Shown piece by piece: positions 9,093 to 64,000 of a stretch of DNA of 64,000 nt. Under the pieces are notes generated by a model. The model searched no databases, was not told the origin of the DNA, and saw only the letters and a program-made list of their open reading frames with translations. How positions within the stretch are numbered: the stretch's first letter is position 1; each line of letters starts with the position of its first letter. Source of the stretch: Aestuariibaculum sp. M13 (GTDB lineage Bacteria > Bacteroidota > Bacteroidia > Flavobacteriales > Flavobacteriaceae); assembly GCF_024723255.1 (NCBI RefSeq), contig NZ_JANIAC010000005.1, positions 124,001-188,000 on the forward strand, given 5' to 3'. The translations under genes were made by a program, and so were the position numbers.

Positions 9093-9119
9093 TAAGTATT
9101 TATACTTAATTAATACTTA
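9093..9119. promoter_or_regulatory. Candidate operator: TAAGTA-N4-TACTTA-N5-TACTTA
   Basis: Three hexamers sit at 9093, 9103 and 9114, that is at 10- and 11-bp steps on one helix face. The first two form the perfect palindrome TAAGTATTTATACTTA, which recurs unchanged at 13784-13799 before narK. The three-part arrangement with the same 10/11 spacing recurs before nirB at 59387-59413. The site lies 65 bp before dodecin (minus) and about 110 bp before the lpd promoter (plus). A regulator bound here is inferred, not shown. Confidence 0.55.
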
Positions 9120-13632: not shown

Positions 13633-13664
13633 ACCACTTTTTTTTACCAATTACAAAATTAAAA

Positions 13665-13683
13665 CTACGTATTTTTTACGTAG
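13665..13683. promoter_or_regulatory. Upstream narK site: CTACGTA-N5-TACGTAG inverted repeat
   Basis: A perfect inverted repeat with 7-bp arms and a TTTTT centre, giving two TACGTA hexamers at 13666 and 13677 (11-bp step). A second TACGTA-N5-TACGTA pair occurs at 13815-13831. It lies about 180-195 bp before narK and about 120 bp before its promoter. Confidence 0.5.
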
Positions 13684-13775
13684 GTCGTAAATTTTAACAA
13701 CTTCCTAAAACCATTGTTTTTACTGCTGTTTCGCAGGTTTTATTCATTTTTGACTTAAAATTATTAGGTTTTTTA

Positions 13776-13831
13776 TTTGTTTCTAAGTATTTATACTTAT
13801 ATATTTGCGTCAGTTACGTAATAAATACGTA
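13776..13831 (+). promoter_or_regulatory. narK promoter with embedded operator-like hexamers
   Basis: TTTG at 13776-13779, a 20-bp spacer and TATATTTG at 13800-13807, which fits the Bacteroidetes -33/-7 pattern. The spacer is filled by the palindrome TAAGTATTTATACTTA at 13784-13799. Two TACGTA hexamers follow at 13815 and 13826, in the probable leader. Steps between hexamers are 10, 21 and 11 bp, all near whole helical turns. The placement between the promoter boxes suggests repression, but this is inference. Confidence 0.6.
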
Positions 13832-13861
13832 TTTCTGTTTTAGGTTTTAAAATACATTGGT

Positions 13862-15352
13862 ATGAAAGTAACACAAGGCGCAAATAAGACATTGTTTATT
13901 AATACTCTGGCATTTACATTCTGTTTTGCAGCATGGCTGTTAAATGGTATTCTGGTAACGTTTCTCGCAGATAATCAGGTGTTCGACTGGAGTGCTGTAG
14001 AAATAGGATGGCTAATAGGTATTCCAGTGCTAACAGGCGCTATATTTCGTTTACCGGCAGGAATTTTAACAGATAAGTTAGGAGGTAAACCGGTATTTGC
14101 TGGCTTGCTTTTAATTTGCGCCATACCAATGTATCTTTTGTCTTATGCCAATGGGTTCTGGTCGTTTGCTTTATGCAGTCTGGGGTTTGGTATCACAGGT
14201 GCCAGCTTTGCAGTAGGTATTGCCTTTTCCTCAATATGGTATCCTAAAGAAAAACAAGGCATTGCCCTGGGGATTTTTGGAGCTGGTAACGCTGGAGCAG
14301 CCATCACAACCTTAATAGGACCAAAACTTTTAAATTATTTAACCGATGGCAAAACCAATTTAGAGGGGTGGCGAATGATGCCACGAATTTACGCCGCATG
14401 TTTAGTATTGATGGCGATTATATTCTTTTTAACGACGACCAATAAGAAACCGGCATCAAGTACAAAAAGCCTCTCAGGCATGTTACAACCGCTTAAGAGT
14501 GTACGCGTCTGGCGATTTGGGTTGTATTACTTTTTAGTGTTTGGTTGCTTTGTGGCTTTCGCAGGATGGCTCGTGCCATATTACACCAATGTGTATGCTC
14601 TGGATTTGGCCACAGCAGGACTATTAGCCTCATGTTTTAGTTTGCCATCAGGAGTAATCAGAGCTTTTGGTGGCTGGTTATCCGATAAGTTTGGAGCCAG
14701 AAAAGTGATGTACTGGGTGTTAGGAACATCGGTGGTGTTAAGTTCGGCGTTGATTATCCCCAGAATGGATATTTACGCTGCAGGAAAAGGCATTATGGCG
14801 AAAGGCTCAGGAGAAGTTACTGAGGTAAGCGATACGCATATTGTGGTTAACAATATAACCTATCCTGTAATACAGCGTTCAAAAGAATTGGCTCATGCTA
14901 ATGATGAGTTTAGGGTTTTCCCAGTTAAGGAATCCTGGCAACAGGTACGAGTAAAGAAAGGCGATCAGGTGAATAAAAAAGAATTGCTGGCCGAAGGGAA
15001 AACTCATATTTACTTTCAGGCTAACGTGTGGATCTTCGCCATTATTGCCATAATAATAGGATCGGTTTGGGGAATAGGAAAAGCTGCTGTATATAAACAT
15101 ATTCCTGATTATTTTCCGGAAGAAGTTGGTGTCGTAGGAGGTATGGTTGGTGTACTTGGAGGTTTAGGAGGTTTCTTTTGTCCTATTTTGTTTGGGTACT
15201 TACTGGAAGGCACAGGACTTTGGTCGAGTTGCTGGATACTTATGCTCATACTATCGGCAGTTTGTTTGATTTGGATGCACAGAGTAATACAGCAAATGAC
15301 AAATAAAGCAACACCTTTATTGGTTAATAAATTTGAGAATAATGTAGATTAA
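13862..15352 (+). CDS. narK: NarK-type nitrate/nitrite MFS transporter
   Basis: 496 residues, inner membrane, twelve predicted helices. Nitrate/nitrite porter signatures are seen: SIWYPKEKQGIALGIFGAGN with a glycine-rich helix, and near the end GGMVGVLGGLGGFFCPILFG. These are the NS motifs of the NNP family. The role is uptake of nitrate or exchange with nitrite for assimilation. Between helices there is an insertion of about 80 residues (about 302-382) with beta-hairpin character (GEVTEVSDTHIVVNNITY, then VRVKKGDQVNKKELLAEG), longer than in E. coli NarK. Upstream motifs are shared with nirB, 45 kb away. Confidence 0.87.
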   Translation: MKVTQGANKTLFINTLAFTFCFAAWLLNGILVTFLADNQVFDWSAVEIGWLIGIPVLTGAIFRLPAGILTDKLGGKPVFAGLLLICAIPMYLLSYANGFWSFALCSLGFGITGASFAVGIAFSSIWYPKEKQGIALGIFGAGNAGAAITTLIGPKLLNYLTDGKTNLEGWRMMPRIYAACLVLMAIIFFLTTTNKKPASSTKSLSGMLQPLKSVRVWRFGLYYFLVFGCFVAFAGWLVPYYTNVYALDLATAGLLASCFSLPSGVIRAFGGWLSDKFGARKVMYWVLGTSVVLSSALIIPRMDIYAAGKGIMAKGSGEVTEVSDTHIVVNNITYPVIQRSKELAHANDEFRVFPVKESWQQVRVKKGDQVNKKELLAEGKTHIYFQANVWIFAIIAIIIGSVWGIGKAAVYKHIPDYFPEEVGVVGGMVGVLGGLGGFFCPILFGYLLEGTGLWSSCWILMLILSAVCLIWMHRVIQQMTNKATPLLVNKFENNVD

Positions 15353-59386: not shown

Positions 59387-59435
59387 TAAGTATAATTACG
59401 TAGTTTTTACTTATGTTTGTAATGTAAAATACGTA
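59387..59435 (+). promoter_or_regulatory. nirB regulatory region: TAAGTA-N4-TACGTA-N5-TACTTA plus -7 box
   Basis: Hexamers at 59387 (TAAGTA), 59397 (TACGTA), 59408 (TACTTA) and 59430 (TACGTA) follow 10-, 11- and 22-bp steps. TATGTTTG at 59412-59419 is a full TAnnTTTG -7 element overlapping the third hexamer, and no TTG -33 box is visible, as expected for a regulated promoter. A further TACGTA lies at 59314-59319. The first three hexamers have the same spacing as those at 9093-9119. Confidence 0.6.
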
Positions 59436-59438
59436 GTT

Positions 59439-61949
59439 ATGAAAAAAATAATTGTTGTAGGTAACGGAATGGTAGGTTATAAGTTTTGTGAAAAATTTGT
59501 AGCTGAAGTTAAAAGTCAGACTTATAAAATTACTGTTTTTGGAGAAGAGCCAAGACCAGCGTACGATAGGGTGCATTTAAGTGAGTATTTTGAAAATCAA
59601 GATGCTGAAGCTTTAGAGATGGCGCCAAGATCATGGTATGAAGAGTACGGTATAGAATTGATAACTGGTGAGCGAGTTGCAGATATCCATCGAAGCAAGA
59701 AAACCATAACTACGGCTAAGGATCGGGAGTTTGAATACGATTACTTAGTACTTGCAACGGGATCTTCTCCTTTTGTGCCACCTATTAAGGGGGTAGAAAA
59801 GAAAGGGGTTTTTGTGTATAGAACCATTGAGGATTTAGAAGGTATGTTGGCTTATGCAGCGGAGTTGAAAGCTAAAAATCCGGATGCTAAAGCTGCTGTT
59901 CTAGGTGGTGGCTTATTAGGGTTAGAAGCTGGTAAAGCGGTTTTAGATATGGGTTTAGAACCACATATTGTTGAGTTTGCTCCTAAATTAATGCCGAGAC
60001 AATTAGATACCAGAAGTAGTCAGGTTTTAAAACTAAAATTAGAATCTATTGGTTTAAATATTCATTTAAGTAAAGCGACCAATCAGATTTTGGGAGGTGA
60101 GGCTATCACCGGGATGGAGTTTGGTGAAGATGACGTTTTAGATGTCGATATGCTAATCATTTCTGCTGGTATTCGTCCAAGAGACGAATTAGCAAAAACT
60201 TGTGATTTGCAAATGGGCGTTCGTGGAGGTATTGTAGTCGATAATAAAATGCAAACTTCCGATTCTAACATTTACGCTATTGGAGAAGTAGCGCTTTACA
60301 ACCAGATGATTTACGGTTTAGTGGCGCCAGGATATGATATGGCTGGTGTTGCAGTTAAACAGATTTTAGGAGAGTCTGATTTTGTAATGCCTGCAGATAT
60401 CGATATGTCTACCAAATTGAAATTAATAGGTGTTGATGTGGCAAGTTTTGGCGAACCATTTATGCCGGCAAGTCAGGGACATTCTGTAATTTTTGAAAAT
60501 AAAACTCAACATTTATATAAGCGTATTAACGTGAGCTTAGATGGGAAATCACTTCTTGGAGGGATTCTTGTAGGCGATGCTTCCGATTACAATATGTTGC
60601 ATCAGATTTATCTAAACGGCATGAAAATTCCTGAAGATCCTTCGCAATTAATTTTACCTGCAAGTGAAGGCGGATCGGCTTTTGGCAGCGTTCTGGATTT
60701 ACCAGATACAGCGCAAGTATGTTCATGTGAAAGCGTAAGCAAAGGAGCTATTTGTTGTTCTATTACCGAAAATGGTAGTAATAATTTAGGTGATGTAATT
60801 GCAGAAACCAAAGCGACAACAGGTTGCGGTGGTTGTAAACCTATGGTGGTCGATTTGGTAAACGAAACGCTTAAATCTTTAGGTAAAGAGGTTAAAGAGG
60901 TTATCTGTGAACACTTTAGTTTTAACCGTCAGGAGCTATATGATTTAGTAAAAGTGAATCAGGTTAAAGATTACGATGAAGCGTTAAATTTATTTGGTGA
61001 CGGTGATGGTTGTGAGGTTTGTAAGCCTGCATTAGCTTCTATTTTCGCTACGATTACCATGGAAACCCCAAATAAGCAATTTGCTATTCAGGATACTAAT
61101 GACAGATTCCTGGCTAACATTCAACGTAATGGAACATATTCGGTGGTGCCGAGGATTGCTGGAGGAGAAATTACACCTGATAAATTGATTGTTTTAGGTG
61201 AAGTTGCTAAGAAATATGATTTATATACTAAAATTACCGGAGGTCAGCGTATCGATTTATTTGGAGCGCAAATTCATGAGTTACCATTAATTTGGAAAGA
61301 ATTAATTGCAGCCGGATTTGAAAGTGGTCATGCTTATGGTAAATCGTTGAGAACGGTTAAGAGTTGTGTGGGGTCTACGTGGTGTCGTTATGGTATGCAC
61401 GAGAGTGTCACTTTTGCTATTGAGATAGAAAATAGATACAAAGGATTACGTAGTCCACATAAATTAAAAGGAGGTGTTTCTGGTTGTATTCGAGAATGTG
61501 CCGAAGCCAGAGGTAAAGATTTCGGATTGATAGCTGTAGATGGTGGTTGGAATCTTTATGTGTGCGGAAATGGTGGTGCAACACCTAAGCATGCTATTTT
61601 ATTCGCCGAACAATTAGATGATGAAACAGCTATTAAATACTTAGATCGTTTCCTGATGTTTTATATTAAAACGGCTGGTCCGTTAGTAAGAACGGCCCCA
61701 TGGTTAGAAAAATTAGATGGCGGTATTGAATACTTGAAAAAGGTGGTGATTGAAGATTCGTTGGGCATTGCAGACGATTTAGAACAAGAAATGAAAGGTT
61801 TGATCAATAAATATGAATGCGAATGGAAACAAGCCATCGAAGATCCGAATATTGCTAAACGTTTTAAACATTTTGTGAATTCTGATGATACCGACGATAA
61901 CTTGGTTTTCGTACCAATGCGTGAACAAAAAATGCCACAAGCCTGGTAA
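59439..61949 (+). CDS. nirB: NADH-dependent nitrite reductase, large subunit
   Basis: 836 residues from ATG 59439; the frame is open further upstream but that segment is intergenic and holds the promoter. FAD/NAD binding at the N-terminus (VVGNGMVGYKFCEKF, LGGGLLGLEAGKAV), two BFD-like [2Fe-2S] segments (CSCESVSKGAI with TTGCGGCK, and CEVCKPAL), then the sulfite/nitrite reductase half with siroheme/4Fe-4S ligands CVGSTWCRYGMH and SGCIRECAEARGKDFG. It reduces nitrite to ammonium. Start of a nirB-nirD-DUF4202-kinase unit. Confidence 0.95.
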   Translation: MKKIIVVGNGMVGYKFCEKFVAEVKSQTYKITVFGEEPRPAYDRVHLSEYFENQDAEALEMAPRSWYEEYGIELITGERVADIHRSKKTITTAKDREFEYDYLVLATGSSPFVPPIKGVEKKGVFVYRTIEDLEGMLAYAAELKAKNPDAKAAVLGGGLLGLEAGKAVLDMGLEPHIVEFAPKLMPRQLDTRSSQVLKLKLESIGLNIHLSKATNQILGGEAITGMEFGEDDVLDVDMLIISAGIRPRDELAKTCDLQMGVRGGIVVDNKMQTSDSNIYAIGEVALYNQMIYGLVAPGYDMAGVAVKQILGESDFVMPADIDMSTKLKLIGVDVASFGEPFMPASQGHSVIFENKTQHLYKRINVSLDGKSLLGGILVGDASDYNMLHQIYLNGMKIPEDPSQLILPASEGGSAFGSVLDLPDTAQVCSCESVSKGAICCSITENGSNNLGDVIAETKATTGCGGCKPMVVDLVNETLKSLGKEVKEVICEHFSFNRQELYDLVKVNQVKDYDEALNLFGDGDGCEVCKPALASIFATITMETPNKQFAIQDTNDRFLANIQRNGTYSVVPRIAGGEITPDKLIVLGEVAKKYDLYTKITGGQRIDLFGAQIHELPLIWKELIAAGFESGHAYGKSLRTVKSCVGSTWCRYGMHESVTFAIEIENRYKGLRSPHKLKGGVSGCIRECAEARGKDFGLIAVDGGWNLYVCGNGGATPKHAILFAEQLDDETAIKYLDRFLMFYIKTAGPLVRTAPWLEKLDGGIEYLKKVVIEDSLGIADDLEQEMKGLINKYECEWKQAIEDPNIAKRFKHFVNSDDTDDNLVFVPMREQKMPQAW

Positions 61950-61973: not shown

Positions 61974-62351
61974 ATGCAAGATATACTTAGTCAATACAAT
62001 ACAGTAACCGAAGCCGATGTTACAACGTGGTTTGAAGTGGGAACCGTTGCCGATTTTCCGGAGAATAGCGGAGCCTGTATAAAGTACAAAACCAAGCAGA
62101 TAGCGGTTTATAATTTTGTTAGAAAAAATAAGTGGTATGCCGCACAAAATCTTTGTCCGCATAAAATGGAAATGGTGTTGTCTCTAGGAATGGTGGGAGA
62201 TAAGGATGGGATCGCAAAAGTAGCCTGCCCGATGCATAAAAAGAATTTTTCGTTGGAAGACGGTTCTAATTTAAACGGTGATGATTTAAAAATTGCGACT
62301 TATCCTGTTAAAATTAAAGATGGAAATGTGTATATTGGCTTTTCAGACTAA
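61974..62351 (+). CDS. nirD: Nitrite reductase small subunit
   Basis: 125 residues, Rieske-like NirD fold. The order of strands is visible in WFEVGTVADFPENSGACIK, AVYNFVRKNKWYAAQNLCPH and ACPMHKKNFSLEDG; the C-x-H residues sit where a Rieske cluster would be, though the NirD type usually lacks the cluster. It partners NirB. It follows nirB by 24 bp. Confidence 0.93.
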   Translation: MQDILSQYNTVTEADVTTWFEVGTVADFPENSGACIKYKTKQIAVYNFVRKNKWYAAQNLCPHKMEMVLSLGMVGDKDGIAKVACPMHKKNFSLEDGSNLNGDDLKIATYPVKIKDGNVYIGFSD

Positions 62352-62366
62352 TATATACCAAACCAA

Positions 62367-62951
62367 ATGGAACCAACAAGATTTGAAACGGCAATAGCCT
62401 TAATAGATAAAAAGAATTCAGAAGATCCTAATGTGTATCACAGTCATGGTTTAGATTTTCCAAAAGAATTGTTATACTCGCAACGCATGTCTCAAAAACT
62501 GTTACAGTTTAAGCCGAATGCATCAAGAGCCTTGCAATTGGCAGCCAGAGCGCAACATATATGCCGATGGAAAATTGCAAGAGACGAGTATCCTATGGAT
62601 CGCGTAGGGTATTTAAAATGGCGAGAAACTCTAAAAAAAATGCATGCCGAATTAACTGCGGAAATTTTAAAGGAAGTAGGGTATGAAGATGAATTTATTG
62701 ATCGCGTTTCGTTTTTAATTAATAAAAAATTAATCAAGAAAAATGAAGAAAGTCAGACTATTGAAGATGTCATTTGTCTGGTGTTCTTAGATTATTATTT
62801 TGAAGAATTTGCTGCTAAGCATGAAGATGAAAAGGTTATTGATATTCTTCAAAAAACATGGGTTAAAATGTCTGATGAAGGACATGAGGAAGCCTTGAAA
62901 ATTAAGTTTTCAGATAAAAGTTTAGCCTTGGTAAAACAAGCGATTTCTTAA
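62367..62951 (+). CDS. DUF4202 protein linked to nitrite reduction
   Basis: 194 residues, mostly helical. It carries PKELLYSQRMSQKLLQFKPN, ALQLAARAQHICRWKIARDE with conserved His and Arg, DFYLEEF-like and HEDEKVIDILQKTWVKMSDEG. DUF4202 genes frequently follow nitrite reductase genes, but the role is unknown. The HIC-R-W and H residues hint at a metal- or cofactor-linked function. It lies 15 bp downstream of nirD. Confidence 0.85.
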   Translation: MEPTRFETAIALIDKKNSEDPNVYHSHGLDFPKELLYSQRMSQKLLQFKPNASRALQLAARAQHICRWKIARDEYPMDRVGYLKWRETLKKMHAELTAEILKEVGYEDEFIDRVSFLINKKLIKKNEESQTIEDVICLVFLDYYFEEFAAKHEDEKVIDILQKTWVKMSDEGHEEALKIKFSDKSLALVKQAIS

Positions 62952-62964
62952 ACAGTATTTAAAA

Positions 62965-64000
62965 ATGACAAATAACGGTAATTCATTAGATCAGCGTACG
63001 TTTGATAAGTTAAGCCGTTTGTATATTATTGCCCTAAGTACCATTGCGCTTTCGGTAATTGTTAGCCAGATTCTTATTCGCAAGCATTTAAATGCGCAAC
63101 AAAGTGACTCGACCGTTATTAACATTGCGGGAAGACAGCGTATGCTTAGTCAGAAGCTTACAAAGGACATTGTTGCACTTTCAGTCGAGCAGGAATTAAA
63201 AGAGCGTATTCTACTTAAAGATAAAATAAAGGCGACCTTAAAACTTTGGGAAACGTCGCATTATTCACTTCAGGAAGGAAGCGAAAGTTTAGGGCTTCCA
63301 GGGAATAATAGTACTGTTATTTCAGATAAGTTTCAAAAGTTAAATCCTATATTCAATACGATAAGTCGTTCGGCTCAAACAATCATAGAAGATATTGAGA
63401 ATGTCCCGCCGTTACCGAATTCGGCTTTTTCTGAAGATATTAAAAAGGTTAGGCAGAATGAAGGTGAGTTTTTGTCTGTGATGGACGAAATTGTAAATCA
63501 ATACGATTTAGAAGCTAATGAAAAAGTGAGCTGGTTACGTCGTTTGGAGATGTTGCTTACTATTTTAACGCTTATCATTTTACTGGCTGAATTTTTATTC
63601 ATTTTTTGGCCAACAGCAAAGTCGGTTAGAGCGACTTTGGCAGAATTATTATCGGCAGAACAACGTGCCAAGCAAATGGCTATTGATGCTGACGAACTGA
63701 GTGTAGCCAAAGAGAAATCGATGCGTGAATTACGTGCTTTAAATCACGCCATGGATGAAACTTTATTGTTTGCTCGTATTACTCAAAGTGGAAATGTGGT
63801 TCATATTGGAAAACGATTTTCACGATTGTTTAAGTTTTCAGGATTTAATGTGACTACAAGTTTTTCAGAAGTGATTTCTGTGCACGAAAAAGAGCAGTTG
63901 GTTTTAGAAAGTATCATTTCAAAAAGTAAGAAAACCGGTTGGCAAGGCGAGGTTAAAGCAACTACAAAAGATCATGAAGATATCTGGTTAGAGATGGCTA
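62965..64000 (+). CDS. Sensor histidine kinase with PilJ-type input, partial
   Basis: At least 345 residues; the gene runs off the right edge before the kinase core. N-terminal helix (about residues 18-40), then a periplasmic PilJ/NarX-like four-helix region with a P-box-like NIAGRQRMLSQKLTKD segment, a second helix (LEMLLTILTLIILLAEFLFIF), a coiled coil and a PAS domain (LLFARITQSGNVVHIGKRFS). By homology of the P-box to nitrate/nitrite sensors, it may sense nitrate or nitrite and control narK and nirB. It starts 13 bp after the DUF4202 gene. Confidence 0.8.
   Translation, partial: MTNNGNSLDQRTFDKLSRLYIIALSTIALSVIVSQILIRKHLNAQQSDSTVINIAGRQRMLSQKLTKDIVALSVEQELKERILLKDKIKATLKLWETSHYSLQEGSESLGLPGNNSTVISDKFQKLNPIFNTISRSAQTIIEDIENVPPLPNSAFSEDIKKVRQNEGEFLSVMDEIVNQYDLEANEKVSWLRRLEMLLTILTLIILLAEFLFIFWPTAKSVRATLAELLSAEQRAKQMAIDADELSVAKEKSMRELRALNHAMDETLLFARITQSGNVVHIGKRFSRLFKFSGFNVTTSFSEVISVHEKEQLVLESIISKSKKTGWQGEVKATTKDHEDIWLEMA

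Follow-up and report, generated by a model that had tools for sequence, protein, structure and literature searches.

Six hexamers of the form TAMKTA lie upstream of a narK-like gene in Aestuariibaculum sp. M13 and resolve into three inverted pairs. We propose, with a probability of about 0.83, that these hexamers are the half-sites of an operator bound by a NarL/FixJ-type response regulator, that the regulator is encoded together with a PilJ(NIT)-PAS-HisKA_3 kinase, and that in Bacteroidota it governs the uptake and assimilation of nitrate. The narK array very probably provides the operators through which a NarXL-like system of Bacteroidota would control nitrate assimilation. Five observations carry the argument: the palindromes, their conservation, the set of genes that they precede, their constant position relative to the -7 box, and the co-occurrence of the site with the regulator. 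Below, 'the window' means the whole stretch of 64,000 nucleotides that was analysed.

Results

The array and promoter upstream of narK

An earlier note on this DNA had listed four copies of TACGTA, one of TAAGTA and one of TACTTA upstream of narK, separated by steps of 11, 107, 10, 21 and 11 bp. All the positions and every step are exact. The promoter that it described is also present: TTTG is followed by 20 bases and TATATTTG, and the central pair of hexamers occupies 16 of these bases, all but the first four. The six hexamers form three palindromic pairs between 13666 and 13831, which we call sites 1 to 3 (Table 1). Parts of a published account give the -7 consensus of sigma-A as TAnnTTTG, at -12 to -5 (PMC9723704). 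Because the box has this position, site 2 would span about -28 to -13 and site 3 +4 to +20; the transcription start is predicted at about 13812. A further hexamer, TGCGTC, may be a degenerate half-site that prolongs the array; in 16 of 34 nirB promoters TGCGTA is spaced equally from the -7 box, and these 16 belong to a single genus.

Table 1. Features of the window, with positions relative to the predicted narK start where these apply
Feature	Position	Strand	Basis or remark
TAAGTA-N4-TACTTA between dodecin-like gene (-) and lpd (+)	9093-9108		
Site 1, TACGTA-N5-TACGTA	13666-13682		about -146 to -130 of predicted narK start
-33 element TTTG, narK promoter	13776-13779	+	sequence and comparison of promoters
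Site 2, predicted main operator, TAAGTA-TTTA-TACTTA	13784-13799		predicted -28 to -13
-7 element TATATTTG, narK promoter	13800-13807	+	fits sigma-A consensus TAnnTTTG
Possible degenerate half-site TGCGTC	13806-13811		putative continuation of the array
Site 3, TACGTA-N5-TACGTA	13815-13831		predicted +4 to +20
narK-like MFS transporter gene	13862-15352	+	PF07690
Operator upstream of nirB, TAAGTA-N4-TACGTA-N5-TACTTA (three half-sites)	59387-59413		
nirB -7 element TATGTTTG	59412-59419	+	TA common with last half-site
Extra half-site TACGTA just 5' of nirB	59430-59435		
nirB, nitrite reductase large subunit	59439-61949	+	TIGR02374, 965 bits (cut-off 578)
nirD-like Rieske protein gene	61974-62351	+	PF13806
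DUF4202 protein gene, between nirD and kinase gene	62367-62951	+	PF13875
Sensor kinase gene (605 aa in full, runs past window end)	62965-64000	+	PilJ, PAS, HisKA_3, HATPase_c

When the closest narK promoters are aligned (four genomes), the half-sites of site 2 are invariant and its 4-bp spacer is different in each. Nor is there any variation, in the same four promoters, in the -7 box or in the TTG of the -33 box. Site 1 is retained in two of three Aestuariibaculum relatives, with a spacer of 4 bp in one of them, and site 3 in all three, one copy having a mismatch. The narK-like protein scores 185 bits against the NarK family model TIGR00886, below the cut-off of 312. By eye it has about 85 extra residues after residue 300 or so; in many of its distant relatives some 490 matched residues are spread over about 2.07 kb of DNA, which suggests a larger insert.

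How often should such hexamers arise by chance? The earlier note had put the expectation well under once in a stretch of this length. That estimate was too strong: 20000 dinucleotide shuffles of the intergenic stretch 13633-13861 (229 bp) contained 1.47 TAMKTA on average. Six or more were reached with P = 0.0021; four TACGTA were reached in 0/20000 shuffles, as were three TAMGTA-N4/5-TACKTA pairs (0/20000). Across the whole window TAMKTA is not enriched, with 122 copies found and 142 expected, so that the signal lies in pairing and location and not in the hexamer itself.

The helical phasing read into the steps holds at short range. In 36 nirB promoters the distances between half-sites cluster at 10, 20, 22-23, 30, 32-33 and 42-43 bp, and to a lesser degree at 12-13 and 56-57 bp, in a sample of which more than half the genomes belong to one genus. 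At long range the claim finds no support, and we rejected it for site 1. The 118-bp step that had been taken as 11 turns comes to 11.2 turns at 10.5 bp, and the step that ties site 1 to the rest measures 117 bp in one close relative and 116 bp in another, the third being without site 1.

The operator across the genome

The pattern TAMGTA-N4-TACKTA occurs nine times in the 4.16-Mb genome, against once for a reversed-pattern control. Seven of the nine copies fall within one 85-kb stretch, at narK, nirB, nasC, moeA/fnr-like, globin, nrtA-like and dodecin/lpd (the dodecin, moeA, nrtA and nasC-type names come from domain matches and a reading of the translations). The exact form TAAGTA-N4-TACTTA is found five times, always on C7, the narK contig, of which the window covers 124001-188000: at dodecin/lpd, narK, nasC (L014:2829), moeA/fnr-like and nrtA-like. 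TACGTA-N5-TAC[GT]TA is found three times, twice at narK and once at nirB, and a copy of the operator with one mismatch precedes the response regulator gene. Looser patterns show no excess over their controls in the genome, neither TACGTA-N5-TACGTA with two mismatches (97 sites vs 217) nor TAMKTA-N5-TAMKTA (13 vs 30).

Two of the nine copies lie away from nitrate genes, at C1:298920 and C1:1178662. By eye, one precedes an aconitase-like gene by about 490 bp and the other an uncharacterised gene by about 70 bp; they may be due to chance. At dodecin/lpd no -7 box was seen adjoining the operator; its half-sites are retained with other spacers in three loci that have lpd and dodecin, among ten narK loci searched. 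This operator would place flavin or lipoamide genes alongside the nitrate regulon.

Conservation of the operator in relatives

The earlier note would have given up its reading if orthologous narK promoters lacked the hexamers and altering them left expression unchanged; the sequence comparison did not refute it. We scanned 49 of 80 listed narK loci, together with 4 loci from another search. A site with at most one mismatch lies within 450 bp of narK at 18 of the 49. All 18 are among the first 19 loci listed, Marinoscillum being the exception, and the other 30 have none (0/30). One of the 4 further loci has a site. Two of the site-less ones are narK-like genes of a single genome (G127) that has both the regulator and a site at nirB; one of these two genes is directly behind the regulator gene. 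Marinoscillum likewise has the regulator and no site at narK. Its nirB and its fnr-like gene have overlapping operator arrays (L194:4794-4819 and L194:17379-17404).

Is the site found at other genes of the set? An exact site precedes nirB at 21 of 21 loci, our own included. Within 300 bp, a site is present at only 13 of 23 loci for the regulator gene and 10 of 18 for nasC, and the fnr-like gene has one at 5 of 5. Genes inside operons rarely have it: nirD 0/21, DUF4202 0/17, nasB-like 0/18 and kinase 1/18. These multi-gene counts come from 300 bp of upstream sequence only; we left out matches below 38% identity (except for narX, narL and moeA), matches starting after residue 12 and those with less than 60 bp of upstream sequence, and some genomes are represented twice, by two labels (for example, L185 and L208).

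Co-occurrence of the site with the regulator

The 39 genomes behind the narK loci were tested for both candidate regulators, the response regulator and an FNR-like protein discussed below, and 30 of the 39 for site counts. An orthologue of the response regulator (E<=1e-60) is present in 18 of 18 genomes with a narK site and in 4 of 21 without one, and those four have the site at nirB. Summed over the 17 counted genomes with the regulator, sites number 130 against 42 for the backward control; over the 13 without it, they number 11 against 30. One regulator-bearing genome, G211, shows no excess (6 vs 7).

Within the order, 36 genomes out of 395 carry nirB, and the 35 besides our own all have an orthologue of the regulator. 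The promoter could be read in 34 of these, the 35th gene beginning at a contig end. In 34 of 34 a site with at most one mismatch precedes nirB, and in 33 it is mismatch-free; these genomes represent 10 genera, 20 of them coming from one genus, and overlap with the 21-locus set by at least one genome. A sample of 392 genomes from the phylum includes 30 with nirB, of which 13 belong to other orders, each with some match to the NarL family. In two of the 13 a regulator orthologue (E<=1e-60) is encoded beside nirB, and both carry the site; in one of these promoters the upstream DNA is 58% GC, yet it holds six TACGTA. In two others the regulator encoded beside nirB is divergent (36 and 40% identity) and the site is absent, and nine have only weaker NarL-family matches, not beside nirB, and no site. 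When the nirB promoters are pooled, the site is present in 36 of 36 with the orthologue and 0 of 11 without it (Fisher 5.7e-11, a figure that ignores descent); the backward pattern, at one mismatch, is present in 0/36 and 1/11. Because regulator and nirB are co-inherited, another co-inherited factor may be the binder.

The kinase and the response regulator

From nirB onwards the gene order is nirB, nirD, DUF4202, kinase, response regulator, nasC-like and NirB-like/rubredoxin. Matches to PF13675, PF07730 and PF02518 in the kinase are above cut-off, and PAS_9 is just at its cut-off of 27. With its PilJ/NarX-like, HisKA_3 and HATPase_c domains, the protein has the composition that defines nitrate-sensing histidine kinases, and would be classed among them; its neighbours include the nitrate genes nirB, nirD, nasC and nasB-like. 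No HAMP or GAF domain was matched in the kinase. Bacteroidetes nitrate-sensor kinases that lack HAMP and GAF and have PAS are described in parts of an earlier survey (PMC8199190).

The response regulator gene (L014:2024-2689) begins 140 bp beyond the kinase stop and encodes 221 aa with a receiver-GerE architecture. It belongs to the NarL/FixJ (LuxR-type) family, scoring 107 bits for PF00072 and 65 bits for PF00196, both above cut-off. It falls below the cut-offs of the NarL equivalog NF007935 (155 of 250 bits) and the FixJ equivalog NF006900 (99 of 255 bits), as the kinase does for NarX (65 of 578 bits) and NarQ (91 of 553 bits). The best curated models for the pair are MctR (NF052445) with 181 bits and MctS (NF052443) with 132 bits, both again below cut-off (300 and 700). 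We know of no target site for MctS/MctR.

Three of the neighbouring genes deserve mention in their own right. The DUF4202 gene stands beside nirD and the kinase gene in 17 of 21 nirB loci, which hints at a role in nitrite reduction. The nasC-like gene (L014:3048-6569) encodes 1173 aa, in which a molybdopterin nitrate-reductase-like part is joined to a NirB-like FAD/BFD part. Directly after it, a 479-aa NirB-like protein with a rubredoxin end is encoded (L014:6575-8014).

What might the regulator bind? Its recognition helix, RTAEVHRFN, resembles that of FixJ, RTVEVHRAN. The form RT-x-E-x-HR-[FY]-N is kept in 30 of 30 orthologues read from site-bearing genomes, 22 from the genomes behind the narK loci and 8 others, and a second copy of the regulator in Flexithrix has RTVQVHRFN. 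The two divergent regulators beside site-less nirB genes have RTVDNHRAN and NTVANQRAS, and two unlinked regulators from site-less genomes have RTVDAHRRN. The FixJ site in the fixK promoter of Sinorhizobium meliloti is given in parts of the literature as TAAGTAATTTCCCTTA, with a SELEX class GTAMGTAG (PMC4999443). By eye, it has the 16-bp layout TAAGTA-N4-xxxTTA in common with ours; here, in contrast, both halves are alike and the site abuts the -7 box. Both proteins are of the NarL/FixJ family with a helix RTxEVHRxN. FixJ serves nitrogen fixation; here the genes act in nitrate assimilation, and the regulator is paired with a kinase that has a PilJ sensor domain. The likeness of the helices together with the matching site supports both the assignment of the protein and TAMGTA as its half-site.

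NarX/NarQ-NarL/NarP of Escherichia coli and our system have a nitrate-type sensor kinase, a NarL-family regulator and nitrate gene targets in common. In our system, unlike NarX/NarQ, no HAMP or GAF was matched and PAS is present, the recognition helix is RTAEVHRFN rather than STVKVHVKH, and the genes are assimilatory. NarL sites are inverted heptamers TACYYMT with a 2-bp spacer (7-2-7), in which TAC faces outward. In site 2, TAAGTA-N4-TACTTA, TAC faces inward by eye, and the two do not match.

The proposal that the narK promoter would carry binding sites for a dimeric regulator thus draws strong support from the palindromes, their conservation and the co-occurrence with the response regulator.

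Placement of the operator against the -7 box

We collected 67 pairs of a site and a nearby -7 box upstream of narK, nirB, nasC, narL, fnr-like and moeA genes, taking only sites with a box near and allowing one site or box to count twice. In 31 pairs the box starts 2 bp ahead of the site end and in 4 right at it; in 26 it starts 6-9 bp beyond the site end, and in 6 elsewhere. There are two registers, about one helical turn apart. At nirB, the last TA of the site is common with the -7 box in 27 of 34 genomes of the order.

A missing -33 box might be taken as a sign of activation. Promoters in the narK register (n=4) have TTTG in 3 and TTG in 4, and the 54 promoters of the other main register have TTTG in 1 and TTG in 3. 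Thirty other upstream TAnnTTTG boxes are equally poor, with TTG in 2 and TTTG in 0; because these control boxes also lack the element, its absence does not discriminate, and we rejected this line of argument.

Discussion

How might the operator work? In the mechanism that we favour, one dimer of the regulator would read TAMGTA-N4(5)-TACKTA, and since further half-sites follow at steps of about 10 bp, several dimers could stack on one face of the DNA. Nitrate (or nitrite) would trigger the kinase. The phosphorylated dimer would then bind site 2 (about -28 to -13), adjoining the -7 box, and activate narK, nirB, nasC and the regulator's own gene. Sites 1 and 3 would raise occupancy or tune the output, with neighbouring half-sites taking up further dimers, perhaps cooperatively. 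If the operator and the regulator are rightly assigned, activation is fairly probable, and repression by covering the core promoter has a lesser but appreciable chance.

The repression reading keeps the regulator and its sites and reverses only the sign of control: RNA polymerase would be blocked, until the signal comes, by a dimer or array that covers about -28 to +20. Sites 2 and 3 do bracket the -7 box and the predicted start, half-sites continue beyond the -7 box in 16 of 34 nirB promoters, and at the nrtA-like gene the 16-bp site is downstream of a TATATTTG box. On the other hand, two registers one helical turn apart would fit contact with the polymerase better than a block. Kinases of the nitrate type should promote phosphorylation in the presence of nitrate, which is when these genes are needed. 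Taken over all, we regard repression as possible and rather unlikely.

Activation might take a more particular form, which we offer tentatively. A dimer at about -28 to -11, its last half-site sharing the TA of the -7 box, would replace the -33 contact from within the core promoter. This would be a distinct, spacer-bound and nitrate-induced mode of activation for the phylum, and its site could be moved by one turn. NarL/FixJ activators usually bind further upstream, which speaks against our mechanism. FixJ, according to parts of one study, protects -69 to -44 and -57 to -31 (PMC4999443).

Could another protein bind the site? The best candidate was the FNR-like CRP-family regulator encoded at G000:C7:213134 (L107:1619-2329). 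It has CRP-family domains, and a site stands in the moeA/fnr-like intergenic region, that is, in its own promoter, as at the fnr-like gene in all five loci. The FNR box is TTGAT-N4-ATCAA; by eye, AAGTA-N4-TACTT has the same 4-bp spacer and G-to-C distance, but its half-site is AAGTA and no TTGAT is present. Its distribution across genomes fits less well. A close orthologue (E<1e-80) is present in 11 of the 18 narK-site genomes and absent from seven, including a Flexithrix isolate (the other six are mostly MAGs and may be incomplete), whereas the response regulator is in 18 of 18. We therefore rejected the FNR-like protein as the binder and consider it improbable in that part. Because its gene, which encodes an N-terminal cysteine cluster and diverges from moeA, has the operator in its promoter, it may form a second layer of the same control.

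That the pattern is part of a promoter for an alternative sigma factor, as its tight coupling to a -7-like box might suggest, is very improbable: it is a palindrome with a free spacer, copies are found far upstream (site 1) as well as downstream (site 3), half-sites form arrays, the dodecin/lpd copy has no -7 box, and the box itself fits the published sigma-A consensus (PMC9723704). A chance cluster in AT-rich DNA, which the commonness of single TAMKTA in the window might suggest, has a negligible likelihood given the three pairs that no shuffle matched and the conservation of the site at narK and nirB loci of other genomes.

The regulator family and the kinase class are already known, and nitrate-type kinases of Bacteroidota have been catalogued, as parts of that survey indicate (PMC8199190). 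In the titles and abstract openings of the open-licence papers that our searches listed, we recognised no description of a target site for them. The present analysis predicts an operator, its regulator and a set of target genes in the nitrate assimilation of Bacteroidota. With this site, the genes that a member controls can be recognised from sequence alone, and the way in which the site is fused to the -7 box raises a testable question about the control of sigma-A promoters in this phylum.
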